Of a stretch of DNA of 64,000 nucleotides, positions 26,118 to 51,842 are shown one piece after another. Source of the DNA: Verrucomicrobium sp. (lineage in GTDB: Bacteria; Verrucomicrobiota; Verrucomicrobiia; Methylacidiphilales; GAS474); assembly GCA_028283855.1 (NCBI GenBank), contig JAPWJX010000005.1:124001-188000 (forward strand), written 5' to 3'. How positions within the stretch are numbered: position 1 is the stretch's first letter; each line of letters begins with the position of its first letter. Made by a program: the position numbers and the translations under genes. The notes beneath the pieces are model-generated. The model made no database searches. It was not told where the DNA came from and was given only the letters and a program-made list of their open reading frames with translations.

Positions 26118-27699
26118 CCAGCGCCACCTCCAGCGCGGCGAAGGCGGCGACGTAGGGCGTCCCGCCGAAGCCGAAGCCGTAGCTGTGCAGCCCCTTGCCC
26201 AGGACGAAGTTGACCCCGTACCAGGCCATCACCACGGAGAGGAAGCAGACGAGGGAGCCGACGGCCAGGCCGAAGCCGCCCCACCACCCGGCGAAGCGCC
26301 CGTGGAGCAGCGCCAGGTAGCCCAGCAGCGTGATGAGGGCCCACGTCTCCTTCGGGTCCCAGTCCCAGAAGCGGCCCCAGGAATAGTTGGCCCAGACGCC
26401 GCCCAGGATCGTCCCGGCGGCCAGGAGGAGGACGCCGATCTGGACCGCCCGGTAAATGGCGCGGACCGCGCCGCCGTCCGCCTGGAAGGGCGTGCCGCGT
26501 AGATAACGGCCCAGGGCGATGTGGCCCAGCCCCATCGCCAGGGCGAAGGCGCCGTAGCTCATCGTGATGGTGAGGACGTGGATGGAGAGCCAGAAATTGT
26601 TCCGCAGGACGGGCACCAGGGGCTGGATCGAGCTGTCGAAGACGAGCGGCGCCATGTCGACCCACAGGAGGACGACGGCGGCCAGAGGCAGCGCGGCCAG
26701 GAGGAAGAGGCGGGGCCGGTAGACCGCCTCCAGGACCAGGGCGAAGAGGACGGCGGCGAAGGCGACCCAGACGATCGACTCGAACATGTTGGTCACCGGC
26801 GGCCGCCCGGCGATCACGATGCGGCTGGCGAAGCCGTAGGCCTGGAAGGCGAAGCCCGCGAGGGCCAGCGCCCAGGTCCACCGGTAGGCGGCGGGGCGTA
26901 TGCCGCCGAGAAGGCAGACGCAGGCGGCGGCCAGGTAGGCCAGCCAGGCCCAGCGCCACGGATGGACTTGGAGGTAGGTGTTTTCGAAGGAAAGCCGCCA
27001 CGCGGGCGGGTAGACGCCGGGGCTCAGGGCGCGGAGGCGGGCGGCCAGCTCCCGCGCGCCTTCGTTGACGCCGGGGGCGTCCCCTTTGGTCCAGGCCTGG
27101 GCCAGCTTTTGGAAGGCCAGCAAGGGAGGGAGCGCCTGCGGGGCGGGATAGACGGTGGCGATCCGCTCGATGACGCCCCAGGTGCCGGTGGCGGCGGAGG
27201 GATCGGGGACGATGGCGTAGGAGGTGCCTTCCGCAAGGCGGGCGAAGAGGGTGAGCCGCTCGGCCACGCGTCCGGCTTCCCGTTCCAGCGGCTGCGGCGG
27301 CGCTTCCGGGGCAGCGATACGGCGGCGGGCGGCTTCCCGCTGCATGCGCAGCAGGGCGGGATTTTCCGCCAGCTCCCGGTAGCTGAAGCGGCTTTGCAAC
27401 CGGGGCAGGCCCAGGACCTTCTTCAGCCGGGCGGATTCCACGGCCAGGATCGGTTTTTTGTCCCAGCCGGTGGGATCGAGCCAGAGGGCGACGACGAGGT
27501 CGAGGTCGCTCCACGTTTTCCCGCCGGCCTCCACGGAGGAGCGGCCGGTCAGCTGGAGCGTCGATTCCCGGGCGAAGCTGGTGAAGGGCTTCTTGCGCCC
27601 CCGATCCTGGACGGCGAGCTGGGCGAAGGCGTCGGGCCGGGCCAGGCCGGCCCAGGCGGGCGCGGCCAGGAGAAGCAGGAGGAAGAGGAGGCGGATCAT
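26077..27699 (-). CDS. ccsA: CcsA/CcmF-like cytochrome c assembly protein (System II)
   Basis: This haem-handling protein helps attach haem to apocytochrome c outside the inner membrane. The 540 residues begin with a signal-like helix and a periplasmic stretch of about 230 residues; the C-terminal half has about eight TM segments and the WWD haem motif (WGRFWDWDPKETW, near bases 26340-26390), flanked by conserved His (NFWLSIHV, GKGLHSYGFG). The long periplasmic N-terminus differs from short CcsA proteins and resembles ResB-CcsA hybrids. ATG 27699 overlaps the resB stop by 4 bases. Confidence 0.88.
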   Translation of the reverse strand: MIRLLFLLLLLAAPAWAGLARPDAFAQLAVQDRGRKKPFTSFARESTLQLTGRSSVEAGGKTWSDLDLVVALWLDPTGWDKKPILAVESARLKKVLGLPRLQSRFSYRELAENPALLRMQREAARRRIAAPEAPPQPLEREAGRVAERLTLFARLAEGTSYAIVPDPSAATGTWGVIERIATVYPAPQALPPLLAFQKLAQAWTKGDAPGVNEGARELAARLRALSPGVYPPAWRLSFENTYLQVHPWRWAWLAYLAAACVCLLGGIRPAAYRWTWALALAGFAFQAYGFASRIVIAGRPPVTNMFESIVWVAFAAVLFALVLEAVYRPRLFLLAALPLAAVVLLWVDMAPLVFDSSIQPLVPVLRNNFWLSIHVLTITMSYGAFALAMGLGHIALGRYLRGTPFQADGGAVRAIYRAVQIGVLLLAAGTILGGVWANYSWGRFWDWDPKETWALITLLGYLALLHGRFAGWWGGFGLAVGSLVCFLSVVMAWYGVNFVLGKGLHSYGFGFGGTPYVAAFAALEVALVSAALWKRLRPAR

Positions 27700-29123
27700 G
27701 AGGTGGGCTTGAAGTAGAAGAGGAGGGCGACGCCGGTGACGACGAGGAGCGCGCCGATCCATTTGAGCGGCCAGCCGGGGTCGAAGAGAACTTGGAGGGT
27801 GGTGCGGTCCAGGTCGCTGGGATCCCAGGAGGATTGGGAGAACTTGTAGTTGAGGCCTAGCATGGAGCGCCAGAGCCCGCCGGGGAAGCTGGCGGGGTAG
27901 TTCATGTGGGCCTGGCCGATGGCCTGCCGCCCGGCCCCGTCGAAGCGGATGGTGGCGATGAAGTCGGCGGGATTGGCGGTCCCTTCGTCCCGCGGCACTT
28001 CGAAGCGCAGGAGCGTCACGGCGAAGGGAAGGGGACGCGTCTTCAGGCCGAAGGCGACGGGGACGCTCCGCCCGGAGGGTGTGGGAAAGAGCCGCTCCTC
28101 GCCGGAGGGGATCCATTGGGCGACGGAGAATGGCTTGCCGTCGCGCAGGAGGACGGCGCGGAGGCCGCCTGCGTCGGCGGGATCGTTGCCGGGCAGGAAG
28201 TAGGTTTCCACGTGGGCGCGATTCTCCGCCTGGAGGAGCGTCGCCTGCCAATCGGCCCAGCCCAGGGGGACGGGCTGGCCTGGGCGCAGGACGCCGGAGG
28301 CGAAGGCCTTTTTCTTCCGCCACAGGACGTAGGGCACGGCGCCGTCCTTCGGCGGGGAGAGCTGGAGGGTGGGCAGGTCGGTCGCCGGCTTGGTCCACTC
28401 GATCCGGGCCAGGGTGAAGAGGGGGCGCGGATCGCCCGCCAGGAGGACGAGGGAAAGCTCCTGCCCCATCATCGCCGTCTGGAGCCGCAGCGCCACGCCG
28501 GGTTTTTCGCCGCCGGGGGCCAGGCGTTCCTTGGCGGCAAGGTGCTCGGCGTAGCCGTCCAGGCGCAGGGCCAGGCCGGGCTCTTCCGGGAGCGGCAGGT
28601 CCCACGGGCGGGCTTCGGTCGGCGGGCGGGCCTCCGGATCGAGCGCGATTTCGTAGAGGCGGCCGGTCTGGGGGATCCGGATTTGGGCGACGGTCTGTTT
28701 GAGGACGACGCGGTTTTGCGGCGCGCCCTGGTCCAGGCTCATGAACCCCTCGAAGCCCCACAGCCGCCCCACGACGGCTCCGGCCAGCAGGGTGATGATT
28801 CCGTAGTGGGTGATGACGAAGCCGAGGTGCTCCCGCCGCCACGGCCAGCGGGTGAGGGTGACGCAGAAGAGGTTCAGGCAAAGAACGCCCAGCCAGGCGA
28901 GGAACCAGGGCGCCTTGTAGATGTAGTGGCGGGCCACGTCGCCGTTGAAACGGGACTCCGTGATGGTGGCCACGGCGCAGGCCGACGCGATGGTGAGGAG
29001 GAGCACCATGGCCAGGTGGAGGGAACCGCCCCGGTGGATGAGCCGCCAAAGGCGGGAACCGTCCCGGCGCGCGGCGACGTGGGCGCGGTGCGCGGCGGGG
29101 GGGAGTTCCGTGGTCAGCCTCAT
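27696..29123 (-). CDS. resB: ResB-like cytochrome c biogenesis protein
   Basis: The 475 residues have N-terminal TM segments (SLHLAMVLLLTIASACAVAT, then two more through HLGFVITHYGIITLLAGA), a large periplasmic domain, and a C-terminal TM (WIGALLVVTGVALLFYF) after a region like the ResB end (GLNYKFSQSSWDPSDL). ResB and CcsA together form the System II haem export and attachment machine. It runs divergently from coxB, separated by 77 bases, so cytochrome c maturation and oxidase may share a control region. Confidence 0.85.
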   Translation of the reverse strand: MRLTTELPPAAHRAHVAARRDGSRLWRLIHRGGSLHLAMVLLLTIASACAVATITESRFNGDVARHYIYKAPWFLAWLGVLCLNLFCVTLTRWPWRREHLGFVITHYGIITLLAGAVVGRLWGFEGFMSLDQGAPQNRVVLKQTVAQIRIPQTGRLYEIALDPEARPPTEARPWDLPLPEEPGLALRLDGYAEHLAAKERLAPGGEKPGVALRLQTAMMGQELSLVLLAGDPRPLFTLARIEWTKPATDLPTLQLSPPKDGAVPYVLWRKKKAFASGVLRPGQPVPLGWADWQATLLQAENRAHVETYFLPGNDPADAGGLRAVLLRDGKPFSVAQWIPSGEERLFPTPSGRSVPVAFGLKTRPLPFAVTLLRFEVPRDEGTANPADFIATIRFDGAGRQAIGQAHMNYPASFPGGLWRSMLGLNYKFSQSSWDPSDLDRTTLQVLFDPGWPLKWIGALLVVTGVALLFYFKPTS

Positions 29124-29200: not shown

Positions 29201-29866
29201 ATGCCGCTCTTTGCCGAAATCCGCACGACCCACATCTGGGGCCTGCCGCCCGCCGTGACGGCGGGCGCCCATGAGATCGACGCGCTGCTCCTCTTCATCG
29301 CGGGTCTGACGGGGGCGGTCTTTGTCCTCACGCAGGGGATTTTCTTTTACAGCCTTTACCGTTACCGGAGGCGGGACGGGGTGGCGGCCCGGCCTACCAC
29401 GGGCCACCTGGGCGCGGAGATCGCCTGGACGCTGGTGACGACGCTCATTTTTCTGGGCCTCTTCGTCTGGGGGGAGGGGCTGTGGAAGAAGCTGCAGACG
29501 CCGCCCCCGGACGCCGGGGCGCTCCAGGTGGAGGTGATGGCGGAGCAATACGACTGGGTGATCCATTACCCGGAGACGGGCCGGACGCTGCATAACGAGA
29601 TGGTCGTCCCCGTCGGCCGCCCGGTCCACCTGCACCTGACCTCCCGGGACGTGATCCATTCCCTCTACATCCCGGAGTTCCGCCTTTACCAGGACCTTGT
29701 CCCGGGCCGGACGATCGACTGGGTTTCCTTTACCGCGGAGAGGCCGGGCCGCTTCTCCATCTCCTGCAGCCAGCTCTGCGGCGCGGGGCACGAGCTGATG
29801 CAGGGCCATCTGCGCGTCCTGCCGCAGGCGGAGTTCGACGCGTGGTATAAGGAAGCCAAACGATGA
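29201..29866 (+). CDS. coxB: Cytochrome c oxidase subunit II (CuA subunit)
   Basis: The 221 residues have two TM helices and a periplasmic cupredoxin domain. CuA ligands are present: H153 (DVIHSLYIP), C189 and C193, H197 and M200 (CSQLCGAGHELM). The residue between the cysteines that normally also binds Mg (Glu in CSELCG/CSEICG) is Gln (Q191). E73 at the start of helix II (GAEIAWT) matches the K-channel entry Glu. There is no fused cytochrome c domain. GGAAGG at 29186-29191 supports ATG 29201; ATG 29180 is an earlier option. Overlaps coxA by ATGA. Confidence 0.95.
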   Translation: MPLFAEIRTTHIWGLPPAVTAGAHEIDALLLFIAGLTGAVFVLTQGIFFYSLYRYRRRDGVAARPTTGHLGAEIAWTLVTTLIFLGLFVWGEGLWKKLQTPPPDAGALQVEVMAEQYDWVIHYPETGRTLHNEMVVPVGRPVHLHLTSRDVIHSLYIPEFRLYQDLVPGRTIDWVSFTAERPGRFSISCSQLCGAGHELMQGHLRVLPQAEFDAWYKEAKR

Positions 29867-31464
29867 GCGCGCCGGACCACAAGCAGCTGGGCCTCCGCTA
29901 CCTTTGGACCAGCCTGGGATTCCTCCTTTTCGGCGGGCTCCTGGCCATCGTCATGCGCTGGCAGGTCGCCTTTCCCCGGGAGCACCTCATGACGGCGGCG
30001 ACCTACCACATGATCCTGACCATGCACTCCACGGTCATGGTCTTCCTGGTCGTCATGCCGCTCCTTTTGGGGGCTTTCGGCAACTACGTGGTGCCGCTTC
30101 AGATCGGCGCGCGGGGGTTGCTCTTTCCCCGTTTGGGCGTCCTTTCCTATTGGCTCTACGCGGCCTCCGGCGCGGTGCTGCTGGCCAGCTTTTGGGTGCC
30201 GGGCGGAGGAGCGCAGGCGGGCTGGACCTCCTACGCCCCGCTGAGCACGCTGGCCCGATACAACCTGACCCAGGTCGGCCAGACCTGCTGGTGCGTGGCG
30301 GTCTTCCTCAACGTCACCGGCTCCCTTTGCGGGGCGGTCAACCTCCTGGCCACGGTGGTCCTTTCCCGCGCGCCGGGAATGGCGTTTTTCCGGATGCCAC
30401 TTTTCACTTGGTCGGTCGCCGTCTCCTCCGTCCTGGTGGTGGTGGCCGCGCCGGTCCTCCAGGCGGCGCTGGTCATGCTGGTGCTCGACCTCGACTGCGG
30501 CACCGCCTTCTTCGACGCGGCCCGGGGCGGCCAGCCGCTCCTCTGGCAGCACCTCTTCTGGTTCTTCGCCCATCCGGAGGTCTACATCCTCATCCTGCCC
30601 GCCATGGGCATCGTCTCGGAGGTTTTGCCGGTCTTCGCGCGGAAGCCGGTCTTCGGCTACCGGGCGATGGTCTGGGCGATGATCGCCATCGCCCTGCTGG
30701 GCTTCCTGGTCTGGGGGCACCACATGTTCGTCAGCGGCATGAGCCTGGTGCTGGCGGCCACGTTTTCCCTCTCCACGCTGCTCATCGCGGTGCCCTCCGG
30801 CATCAAGACCTTTAACTGGATGGGGACGGTCTGGGGCGGCTCGATCGAATTCGCGCTGCCGATGCTCTACGCGCTCGGCTTCGTCACTCTCTTCGTCATC
30901 GGGGGGCTCTCCGGCATCTTCATGGCCTCGACGCCGGTCGACCTCTTCGTCCACCACACCTACTTCATCGTGGCCCATATCCACTACGTCCTCTTCGGGG
31001 GGAGCCTCTTCGGCGTCTTCGCGGGGATCGCCTATTGGTATCCGAAGATGTTCGGCCGGATGATGGACCCCTTTCTGGGGCGTCTCCACTTCGGCCTGAC
31101 GCTGGCCTTTTTCAACCTGACTTTTTTCCCCATGCACTTCCTGGGCCTGGGAGGGATGATGCGCCGCATTTCCGACCCGCTGCTCTACGAGCACCTGGTC
31201 AGCCTCCAGCCGATCAACCAGCTCTGCACCCTCGGCGCGGTGGGGTTGGGCCTGGCTCAGATTCCCTTCGTCGTGAATTTCTTCCGCAGCTTGCGGCACG
31301 GGGCGCCCGCCGGGCCGAATCCCTGGCGCGCGGCCACCCTGGAATGGGCCTGCCCGTCGCCGCCGCCCCCGGGGAATTTCGAGAAAATCCCCCTCGTCAC
31401 CCGGGGACCCTACGAATATAGTCTCCACCCCTCGAGCGATTACCGCCCCCAAAACGACTCATGA
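29863..31464 (+). CDS. coxA: Cytochrome c oxidase subunit I, lacking the D-channel aspartate
   Basis: The catalytic haem-copper subunit (533 residues). Haem and copper ligands are all present: H55, H237, H286/H287, H372 and H374, plus the E239/Y241 pair of HPEVY. The K-channel motif PSGIK keeps K315. The D-channel entry is changed: in FGNYVVPLQIGARG, N74 is kept but the expected Asp is G85, and the later Asn is G92. The Mg-site Asp (HDTYF) is His (H364-H365). This is an A-type fold by HPEVY but with altered proton and Mg sites. Overlaps ctaA by ATGA. Confidence 0.96.
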   Translation: MSAPDHKQLGLRYLWTSLGFLLFGGLLAIVMRWQVAFPREHLMTAATYHMILTMHSTVMVFLVVMPLLLGAFGNYVVPLQIGARGLLFPRLGVLSYWLYAASGAVLLASFWVPGGGAQAGWTSYAPLSTLARYNLTQVGQTCWCVAVFLNVTGSLCGAVNLLATVVLSRAPGMAFFRMPLFTWSVAVSSVLVVVAAPVLQAALVMLVLDLDCGTAFFDAARGGQPLLWQHLFWFFAHPEVYILILPAMGIVSEVLPVFARKPVFGYRAMVWAMIAIALLGFLVWGHHMFVSGMSLVLAATFSLSTLLIAVPSGIKTFNWMGTVWGGSIEFALPMLYALGFVTLFVIGGLSGIFMASTPVDLFVHHTYFIVAHIHYVLFGGSLFGVFAGIAYWYPKMFGRMMDPFLGRLHFGLTLAFFNLTFFPMHFLGLGGMMRRISDPLLYEHLVSLQPINQLCTLGAVGLGLAQIPFVVNFFRSLRHGAPAGPNPWRAATLEWACPSPPPPGNFEKIPLVTRGPYEYSLHPSSDYRPQNDS

Positions 31465-32492
31465 GCACGACCCTTTCCGAGCCTGCCGCCGCCTCCGCCC
31501 CGTATACGCCGCCTCCGGGCCTCCGCATTTACAGCGGCTTCGTTGTCGGCGCGGTGCTTTTCCTCATCACCGTCGGCGCGCTGGTCACCAGCCATGAGGC
31601 CGGGATGACCGTCCCCGACTGGCCCACGAGCTTCCACCAGAACATGTTCACCTTTCCCTACCAAAAGTGGGTCGGGGGCATCTTCTACGAGCACTCCCAC
31701 CGCCTCGTCGCCTCGGGCGTCGGCCTCCTCACGGTCGTCCTGGCCATCTGGATGGGCGTCCGCGAATCGCGCCGCTGGCTGCGGAACCTCGGCTTCGTCG
31801 CCCTGGGGCTGGTCATCCTGCAGGGGGTGGTCGGCGGCCTGCGCGTCGTCTGGCGGCTGAACGACTTCGGCATTCCCCACGCCGTCCTCGGACAGCTCTT
31901 CCTAGTCGTCACGGGGCTCATCGCGCTGGCCTACACCGGCAGCTGGCTGACGCCGCCGCCGCACGCGGAGCGCCTCCCGCGCCGCTGGCAGCGGGGCATT
32001 CACCTGGTGGCCGGGCTCATCTTTATCCAGCTCATCCTGGGCGCGGTGATGCGCCACCAGCACGCGGGGCTTTCCATCCCGGACTTCCCCACCGCCTACC
32101 ACCATTTCTGGCCCCACGTGAACAAGGCCAATCTGCCGGAGATCAACGCCGCCCGCGCCGCCGCCGGCCAGGCTCCCACCACGATCATGCAGATCCACCT
32201 GCAGATGACCCACCGGATGCTGGCCTATATCATCTTCTTCGGCGTCGTCTTTTGCGGCTTGGCCGTCCTGCGCTGCCGCCAAAGCCCCGACGTCCTGCGG
32301 AACCTGGCCGTTTTCTGGCTTTTCCTCATCTTCATGCAGATCGCCCTGGGCGCGGCGGTGATCTGGAGCGGGAAGAGCCCGCTCGTCGCCACGCTGCACG
32401 TCGTCACCGGGGCGGCGCTCCTTCTCACCGGCTCCACCATGGCAGCCCTGGTCAGCCGCTGGCGGCGCTCCGCCGTTGCCGTCGAGGCTTGA
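31461..32492 (+). CDS. ctaA: Haem A synthase (CtaA/COX15)
   Basis: CtaA oxidises the C8 methyl of haem O to a formyl group, giving haem A for the oxidase. The 343 residues have eight TM segments in two four-helix halves, each with conserved His: EHSHR and GIPHAVLGQ in the first half, MTHRMLAY and TLHVVTG in the second. VPDWP and IPDFP loops repeat between halves. It lies directly behind coxA with a 4-base overlap and before ctaB, so haem A is made beside the enzyme that needs it. Confidence 0.94.
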   Translation: MSTTLSEPAAASAPYTPPPGLRIYSGFVVGAVLFLITVGALVTSHEAGMTVPDWPTSFHQNMFTFPYQKWVGGIFYEHSHRLVASGVGLLTVVLAIWMGVRESRRWLRNLGFVALGLVILQGVVGGLRVVWRLNDFGIPHAVLGQLFLVVTGLIALAYTGSWLTPPPHAERLPRRWQRGIHLVAGLIFIQLILGAVMRHQHAGLSIPDFPTAYHHFWPHVNKANLPEINAARAAAGQAPTTIMQIHLQMTHRMLAYIIFFGVVFCGLAVLRCRQSPDVLRNLAVFWLFLIFMQIALGAAVIWSGKSPLVATLHVVTGAALLLTGSTMAALVSRWRRSAVAVEA

Positions 32493-32507: not shown

Positions 32508-33404
32508 ATGAAGGAAACGGCCGTCCCCGCCGCAGAGCCTCAGCCCAGCTGGTTCTCCGACGTCATGGAGCTGGCCAAGGCCCGGCTCACCTTCATGGTG
32601 CTGGTGACCACCCTGGCGGGCTTCTACCTGGCCGCGCCGGGCGCGGTGGACGGGCGGCTCCTCTTCCACACCCTGCTGGGCACGGCCCTGGTGGCCGCCT
32701 CCGCCTCGGCGCTCAACCAGCTGGTGGAGCGGGAGCACGACAGCCGCATGCCCCGCACGGCGGACCGCCCCCTGGCGGCGCGCCGCCGCCGGGCCGATAC
32801 GGTTCTCTTCGGCGCCCTGGTCGTGGGCGTCCTGGGACTGGTGGAGCTGGCGGTGGCGGTGAACCTCCTCTCCTGCCTCCTGGCGGCGGTGACGCTGGCC
32901 TCCTACGTCCTGGTCTACACGCCGATGAAGCGGACGACGACGCTCAACACCTTCGTCGGCGCCATCCCCGGCGCGATCCCGCCGGTCATCGGCTACACGG
33001 CGGTGGAGAACAAACTGGGGCTGGAGGCGGCGCTTCTCTTCGCCATCCTCTTTTTCTGGCAGCTGCCCCACTTCCTGGCCATCGCGTGGATGTACCGGGC
33101 GCAATATCGGGACGCGGGCTTCAAGATGCTGACGGCGGACGATCCCCACGGGGCGCAGACCGGGCGGCAATCCTTCCTCACCGCCACGGCGCTCCTGCCG
33201 GTGGCGCTCCTGCCTTCCCTGGTCCGTCTGGCGGGCCCGGTCTATTTCTGGGGGGCGCTGATCCTGGGCCTCTTCTTCTGCTTCAAGGCATGGCAGTTCT
33301 CCCGCCAGCCGGGCGACGGCCGCGCGCGGCAGCTTTTTTTCACCTCCATCATCTATCTGCCGCTCCTTTTGGGCCTGATGGCTTATGACGCCGCCCGCGG
33401 GTAG
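32508..33404 (+). CDS. ctaB: Protoheme IX farnesyltransferase (haem O synthase)
   Basis: CtaB adds a farnesyl group to haem B to give haem O, the substrate of CtaA. The 298 residues have about nine TM segments. The first prenyl-binding motif is NQLVEREHDSRMPRT (the N-x3-E-x3-D form of COX10-like enzymes) and the second is YTPMKRTTTLNTFVGA. Start 15 bases after ctaA. The last 20 bases overlap the next small gene. Confidence 0.95.
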   Translation: MKETAVPAAEPQPSWFSDVMELAKARLTFMVLVTTLAGFYLAAPGAVDGRLLFHTLLGTALVAASASALNQLVEREHDSRMPRTADRPLAARRRRADTVLFGALVVGVLGLVELAVAVNLLSCLLAAVTLASYVLVYTPMKRTTTLNTFVGAIPGAIPPVIGYTAVENKLGLEAALLFAILFFWQLPHFLAIAWMYRAQYRDAGFKMLTADDPHGAQTGRQSFLTATALLPVALLPSLVRLAGPVYFWGALILGLFFCFKAWQFSRQPGDGRARQLFFTSIIYLPLLLGLMAYDAARG

Positions 33405-33666
33405 GCTGGCCCTGGCCATCTTCCTGGTGGCCGACGGGATGTTTTTCGCCGGGTTCCTGGCGGCGTCCCTGGTGCTCCCTTCCGGAGAGGCCTTCCGCAA
33501 GCCCGTGGCCCTCCTTTACTGGGCCCATCTGGCCTTCGGAATCGGCTGGGCGGCCTGGGCCCTTCTCCGGCGGCGGCCCCTGGTCCTGCCTCTCTTTTAT
33601 TTTCGCTATCTCTTTGGCCTGGGGATCCTCCTCTTTTTGCTGCTTTACGCCCGGCTTTGGTTTTAG
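33385..33666 (+). CDS. Short membrane protein resembling the first helices of oxidase subunit III
   Basis: A 93-residue protein with three or four hydrophobic segments. Its first segment (LALAIFLVADGMFFAGFLAA, residues 8-27) resembles the first conserved helix region of CoxC (motif like FLASEVMFFAGLF), but the rest of subunit III, normally 180 residues or more, is not there. ATG 33385 lies inside the end of ctaB, suggesting coupled translation. It may be a reduced subunit III or a separate small subunit. It is real coding by position and hydrophobic pattern; identity is tentative. Confidence 0.6.
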   Translation: MTPPAGRLALAIFLVADGMFFAGFLAASLVLPSGEAFRKPVALLYWAHLAFGIGWAAWALLRRRPLVLPLFYFRYLFGLGILLFLLLYARLWF

Positions 33667-51391: not shown

Positions 51392-51486
51392 TGCCGTCTT
51401 GTCAGGCTAGCCGACTTCGGGGAGAGGGCAAGCGACGGTGGGGGGAAGAAACGTCGTTATGACGATCTTCTCCCCCCGAAGGGGAG

Positions 51487-51842
51487 TGGAGGCGGGGGGA
51501 GTCGAACCCCCGTCTTCTAGCGGGCTACCAGCCGCATCTACAAGTTTAGTGGCCGTTTGAGTTTCGGATTCCGGCGTTGCCTGGCCACGGGCCGCCGGAA
51601 CCTAGTCACCACATTGATGCCGGCGCGGAGGTCGGTCACTCACCTCTCACGCCCGCCCGGCTAATGGCGCCGTTGTCCCCCAGCCGGAGTCAGGGCAACG
51701 ACGTCGCGGCACTATTAGGCCGCGAGAGCCAACTCTTCGTTAGCGTTTATTTGTTTGAACAGGATTTTTTACGAGGCCAACCCGTTCAGTCCTCGACTTG
51801 CAGCGGGAGGCGACGCTCTAGAATCGAAGCCAATGCGCCCCC
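51487..51842 (-). ncRNA. ssrA: Transfer-messenger RNA (tmRNA)
   Basis: On the minus strand the 5' GGGGGCG (51836-51842) pairs with 3' CGCCTCC (51488-51494), discriminator A at 51487, and a T arm GGGGGTTCGACTCCCCC lies near the 3' end. The tag reading frame at 51715-51744 (resume codon GCT at 51742-51744) encodes ANEELALAA, followed by TAA and then TAG. Length is about 356 bases; CCA is not encoded. It rescues stalled ribosomes. Confidence 0.95.

Follow-up and report, generated by a model that had tools for sequence, protein, structure and literature searches.

In A-type haem-copper oxidases the aspartate at the mouth of the D channel (bovine D91, R. sphaeroides D132) counts as almost invariant, and what it does has been learned from mutants made in the laboratory. 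In an enzyme that has subunit III, replacement of this Asp nearly abolishes activity. According to PMC12901375, uptake of protons by the D path is blocked in laboratory A-type enzymes that carry D91N, mutation of N98 abolishes pumping but leaves O2 reduction in place, and the A-type K channel brings only one or two of the eight protons and has no part in the oxidative half.

In the ACIII-aa3 supercomplex of F. johnsoniae, subunit III is the part of the oxidase to which ACIII binds; subunit III also has a loop near the D-channel Asp (PMC8361435), and in known enzymes it shields this residue. The same review describes R. sphaeroides aa3 deprived of subunit III, in which protons are taken up via surface groups other than the D-channel Asp (Adelroth and Hosler 2006), and changes at the channel mouth that alter the stoichiometry, often without a change in turnover. 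Archaeal family A oxidases with D- and K-channel variants have been mentioned (PMC8239418), which means that variation of the D channel in nature is not in itself a novelty. In the literature outside most subscription journals we found no paper on natural D-channel-less A-type oxidases under that exact phrase, and no biochemistry of the oxidases of the verrucomicrobial clade described below.

The oxidase analysed here is encoded in the window, the whole 64,000-nucleotide stretch of Verrucomicrobium sp. DNA that was studied (Table 1). It has A-type subunits I and II as the F. johnsoniae supercomplex does, and its orthologous clade resembles the F. johnsoniae type in having coxBA with ACIII genes nearby and a short subunit III (~190-200 aa), whereas the window's genus lacks ACIII, D91 and N98 and its subunit III is decayed. 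As in the R. sphaeroides enzyme without subunit III (PMC8361435), the mouth has lost its cover and proton entry would no longer depend on the D-channel Asp alone. In contrast to that laboratory enzyme, the window's oxidase is natural, evolutionarily maintained and changed at the N139 position as well. With the B-type ba3 oxidase of Thermus it shares the lack of a D-channel Asp (Arg in ba3; PMC12901375, Table 2) and of N98, but it is clearly A-type and keeps Glu242, N80 and N163, all three of which are missing from ba3 (same table). The D91-keeping orthologues share ~57-66% identity, HHTYF, C[NS]QLCG and, in most, the gene order coxB-coxA-ctaA-ctaB; they differ in keeping D91, N98, a full subunit III and ACIII, and in having no bc complex.

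Table 1. Genes and altered codons of the oxidase locus, in window coordinates
Feature	Position	Strand	Basis and remarks
coxB	29201..29866	+	start ATG at 29201; Pfam COX2 and NCBIfam CoxB over cut-off; alignments
coxA	29863..31464	+	533 aa, without internal stops; Pfam COX1 485 bits; PDB matches are aa3 subunit I
ctaA, haem A synthase (COX15/CtaA)	31461..32492	+	Pfam COX15-CtaA
ctaB, haem O synthase	32508..33404	+	NCBIfam cyoE_ctaB over cut-off
orf93, decayed and shortened coxC remnant	33385..33666	+	hhalign vs clade coxC
resB-like cytochrome c biogenesis gene, divergent from coxB	27696..29123	-	Pfam ResB, synteny
G85 codon GGG (bovine D91 / R. sphaeroides D132)	30115..30117	+	alignments
G92 codon GGC (bovine N98 / R. 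sphaeroides N139)	30136..30138	+	alignments
H365 codon CAC (bovine Mg-site D369)	30955..30957	+	alignments
CSQLCG of coxB, Q191 replacing the Mg-site Glu	29765-29782	+	residue coordinates

The coxB and coxA ORFs are intact, overlap by 4 bases and are followed by ctaA and ctaB; the resB-like gene adjoins coxB also in G002, a second species of the genus. The subunit I segment FGNYVVPLQIGARGLLFPRLG has Gly85 at the position of bovine D91 and Gly92 at that of N98. All ligands of haem a, haem a3 and CuB are present, E239, Y241 and K315 are kept, the Mg-site pair reads H364-H365, and the A1-type signature HPEVY is found. The helix VI Glu at the end of the D channel, E239, stands in AHPEVY in the window and in GHPEVY in the relatives. 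The CuA site of subunit II is complete (H153, C189, C193, H197 and M200). Both the K-channel set (E73 of subunit II at the channel entry, S252, S312, K315 and Y241) and the remaining D-channel residues (Y13, N74, S154, N160 and E239) are intact. Every residue call of the earlier sequence-only reading (G85, G92, H365, Q191) was found at its position, and so were the haem, Cu and CuA ligands and E239, K315 and E73, which it had listed as kept.

That reading had also assigned an A-type fold, and the COX1 profile, the aa3 PDB matches and the tree agree with it. The best NCBIfam profile of coxA was TIGR02891 (CtaD_CoxA) with 637 bits, below its cut-off of 670.75, and the top PDB matches were all aa3-type. 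The SoxB profile gave 87 bits against 637 for CtaD, which places the enzyme outside the B-type (ba3) family. Membership in A1 is indicated by the subunit I profile, the tree, the helix VI Glu and the K channel; because G85 and G92 stand in place of D91 and N98, we regard the oxidase as a variant and not as a standard A1 member. Of the third subunit of a three-subunit core there is only a diverged 93-aa remnant, and the standard Mg site (H368, D369 and Glu198 of subunit II) reads H364, H365 and Q191. On these grounds the enzyme is classified as a CuA-bearing A-type oxidase, a predicted cytochrome c oxidase of A1 type with all metal ligands.

Sequences for comparison at the missing Asp came from searches of 98 relatives, 62 genomes of the order, a phylum sample of 388 genomes and named genomes; the sample is skewed to query-like sequences, and many clade members are closely related. 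The phmmer alignment to a solved actinobacterial subunit I was gapless across the D91/N98 loop. In a multiple alignment with 118 oxidases from outside the window's genus, the D91 column held Asp in 116 of 117 sequences and Glu in one, and the N98 column held Asn in 117 of 117. D91 and N98 were kept in 30/30 orthologues of the clade, and the others had Asp or Glu together with Asn in 87/87. An alignment slip is ruled out by the gapless loop and by the Asp in the same column. No better alignment restored the Asp, nor was it found at a shifted position in close homologues. Sequencing error is ruled out because both glycines are also present, in a different context, in G002 at 70% identity (ARGTAFPRLGAIAW). 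The third genus member, G001, was excluded from this count, its sequence ending before the D91/N98 region.

Sixty-two columns were near-universal, each being at least 98% conserved in the 118 other oxidases. Only two of them, D91 and N98, were broken in the window and G002; these two had been chosen beforehand by the sequence-only reading, and the informative part is that no other near-universal column was broken. With two species and 2 of 62 columns, the observation of the missing Asp and Asn is stronger than could be seen from the window.

The orthologous clade is ~57-66% identical to the window's subunit I, and its named members are Verrucomicrobia. In the tree, the window and G002 formed one branch (100/100) within this clade (100/99); no branching order inside the clade was resolved, including the place of the genus. 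A wide scan of genome contigs gave no further Asp-less member among the matches listed. Judged from the sampled sequences, the loss of D91 and N98 is confined to the window's genus, with two genomes and one ancestral event.

Two other variants were seen among the sampled subunits I. In an A-type group from several phyla (L031, L080, L088, L127, L129 and others) the K-channel Lys is replaced by Ile while the D channel is kept, the mirror image of the window's case. An A-type-like subunit I of an uncultured proteobacterium (L052:7001-8638) has H237Q and H286Q at CuB and Glu in place of D91; it also lacks the K-channel Lys and is possibly a non-oxidase member of the superfamily.

The position of D369 in the Mg site is occupied by His in 30/30 clade orthologues, by Asn in G001 and G002, and by Asp in 85 of 88 sequences outside the clade. 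Wherever subunit II could be read, its Mg-site Glu is replaced by Gln: in all 26 such members of the clade and in both such members of the genus. This Gln is not unusual in itself: outside the clade 12 sampled loci, one oxidase being counted twice (L001/L048), have it with Asp369 kept, and 47 have Glu. The sequence-only reading was right about the altered residues of this site; its joining of them to the loss of the D-channel Asp is rejected, the Mg-site change being common to a clade that keeps D91 and N98 and hence older than, and independent of, the D-channel change. The His-His-Gln set, found across the verrucomicrobial clade (e.g. L005-L028, L134-L137), may bind a different metal, or none.

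In most D91-keeping loci that were long enough the order is coxB-coxA-ctaA-ctaB-coxC. A COX3 domain was found in 16 of 17 D91-keeping clade genomes, one of the matches being weak; the exception is a genome 68% complete. In the three genomes of the window's genus, the slot for coxC lies between ctaB and ispF and contains a diverged ORF of small size: 93 aa in the window, ~161 aa in G002 and no fewer than 140 aa in G001. Pfam gave no COX3 match for these three ORFs, and they were therefore examined by profile-profile comparison. With hhalign they matched the coxC of the clade at E 1.7e-6 (probability 90%), and the controls, which were shuffled sequences and further membrane proteins encoded in the operon, gave E of at least 0.09. 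The likeness is centred on the first helix, where orf93 reads FLVADGMFFAGFLAASLVL and clade coxC FLASEAMLFAGLIGGYIVLR, with Glu now Asp. The GC content of orf93 by codon position is codon-like. Its AlphaFold2 model has three helices, for which Foldseek gave no significant match; a remnant of three helices is too common a shape to be informative. All COX3 domains of the three genus genomes are those of the canonical caa3. By this profile likeness the slot ORF is assigned as a decayed remnant of subunit III; the ORFs may still yield a protein that covers the D-channel mouth.

The surrounding respiratory chain differs in parallel. ACIII, scored by its NrfD domain, was present in 9/9 D91-keeping clade genomes tested, often within ~10 kb of coxBA, and in 0/3 genus genomes. 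A bc-type cytochrome b was present in 3/3 genus genomes and in 0/12 others tested. In the window's genome it lies beside a canonical caa3 (a subunit I+III fusion, L048), which retains IGARDVAFPRLN; this genome also has a bd oxidase.

On balance this is probably an accessory oxidase whose D-channel mouth has been remodelled, and it would reduce O2 via CuA with pumping reduced or lost. In the relatives the oxidase appears to belong to an ACIII-oxidase chain made up of ACIII, subunits II and I, and subunit III. In the window's genus this chain would have been re-plumbed to the bc complex and the canonical caa3. ACIII would have been present in an ancestor of the genus, a presumption that depends on the place of the genus within the clade. 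The ACIII partner may have been lost first, after which subunit III would no longer have been held; once it was gone, the D-channel mouth would have been exposed and the Asp and Asn not needed as before. We link the losses of ACIII, subunit III and the Asp because of the known contacts of subunit III with ACIII and with the D-channel Asp; their co-loss is a single correlated event in one lineage. That the Asp became dispensable through the loss of ACIII and of the covering subunit III, leaving a working oxidase that is non-pumping or re-tuned, is a tentative proposal, plausible but short of probable. O2 would most likely still be reduced, with cytochrome c electrons arriving via CuA. Substrate protons would most likely enter through the exposed, unspecialised D-channel mouth and the K channel; the retention of the upper D channel and Glu242 argues for a channel that still carries protons. 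Pumping would most likely be reduced or lost: without N98 and a shielded mouth, coupling should be weak or absent.

The sequence-only reading had inferred that protons are taken up through the K channel only. The absence of the D-channel entry Asp stands; exclusive use of the K channel does not follow from it, as the D channel is otherwise intact. If the D channel were dead, all chemical protons would enter via E73 of subunit II and K315 with little or no pumping, and the enzyme would work like a B-type one. The loss of D91 and N98 with retention of E73, S252, S312, K315 and Y241 is consistent with such a state, and so is the blocked D-path uptake of laboratory D91N enzymes (PMC12901375), but intact Y13, N74, S154, N160 and E239 are unexpected in an abandoned channel, the K channel of known A-type enzymes delivers no more than two of the eight protons and none for the oxidative half, and the decay of subunit III offers another proton entry. 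We consider a K-channel-only enzyme unlikely. About as improbable is an outcome in which the paired change of D91 and N98 together with the loss of subunit III re-tunes the mouth, a nearby group or water surface feeds the chemical as well as the pumped protons, and pumping is preserved. The simultaneous change of both residues would fit, as would the mouth changes that shift stoichiometry, often at unaltered turnover (PMC8361435). In the subunit I alignment, however, no acid particular to the genus was seen near the mouth (D211 is the sole new acid in those clade-conserved columns that differ in both genus members), and the N98 substitutions characterised so far mostly decouple. A rescue of this kind is said to occur in R. 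sphaeroides, where the D132N/N139D double mutant reportedly regains the pumping lost in N139D.

A third view is that the D-channel mouth was lost because a redundant enzyme no longer matters and is on its way to a pseudogene. The genus does have a canonical caa3, the window's genome a bd oxidase too, and subunit III is visibly decaying. Against this, 60 of the 62 near-universal columns are intact, the reading frame has stayed open in both species despite only 70% identity, and ctaA and ctaB have been retained in the operon. Between the window and G002, coxA differs at codon positions 1, 2 and 3 by 0.25, 0.17 and 0.41; the excess at third positions and the 60 kept columns indicate purifying selection on coxA, which speaks against simple decay and makes it very unlikely. 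It is more improbable still, to the point of being negligible, that the protein is no longer an O2 reductase, having become, e.g., an NO reductase or a sensor. The haem-copper superfamily does include NO reductases with CuA, and CuB ligands are missing from one of the sampled relatives, L052, but the window's enzyme retains its haem ligands, every CuB His (three) and Y241, the cross-linking Tyr, and genes of haem A synthesis lie in the operon.

If the accessory oxidase with a remodelled mouth is the right description, evolution has repeated the laboratory result on subunit III and D132, and the locus is a natural counterpart of the classic laboratory mutation at the mouth of the main proton channel. 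The lineage is a natural experiment on the need for the Asp and for subunit III, and on whether pumping can go while the chemistry stays; the D91-keeping orthologues, at ~65% identity, are ready-made controls.

Further COX1-family proteins were noticed in the course of the analysis. At L158:1390-2841 (G359) and L162:1456-2886 (G005), in D91-keeping genomes of the clade, one is encoded beside ACIII and a FixO/CcoO-like cytochrome c; it seems to lack the usual haem/CuB histidines, and reads FTDYTRGLFF at what we take to be the place of the His pair of CcoN. A second distant COX1-family protein recurs in 9/9 D91-keeping ACIII genomes tested. Elsewhere in the window, a tmRNA gene at 51486-51842 (- strand) encodes the tag peptide ANEELALAA.
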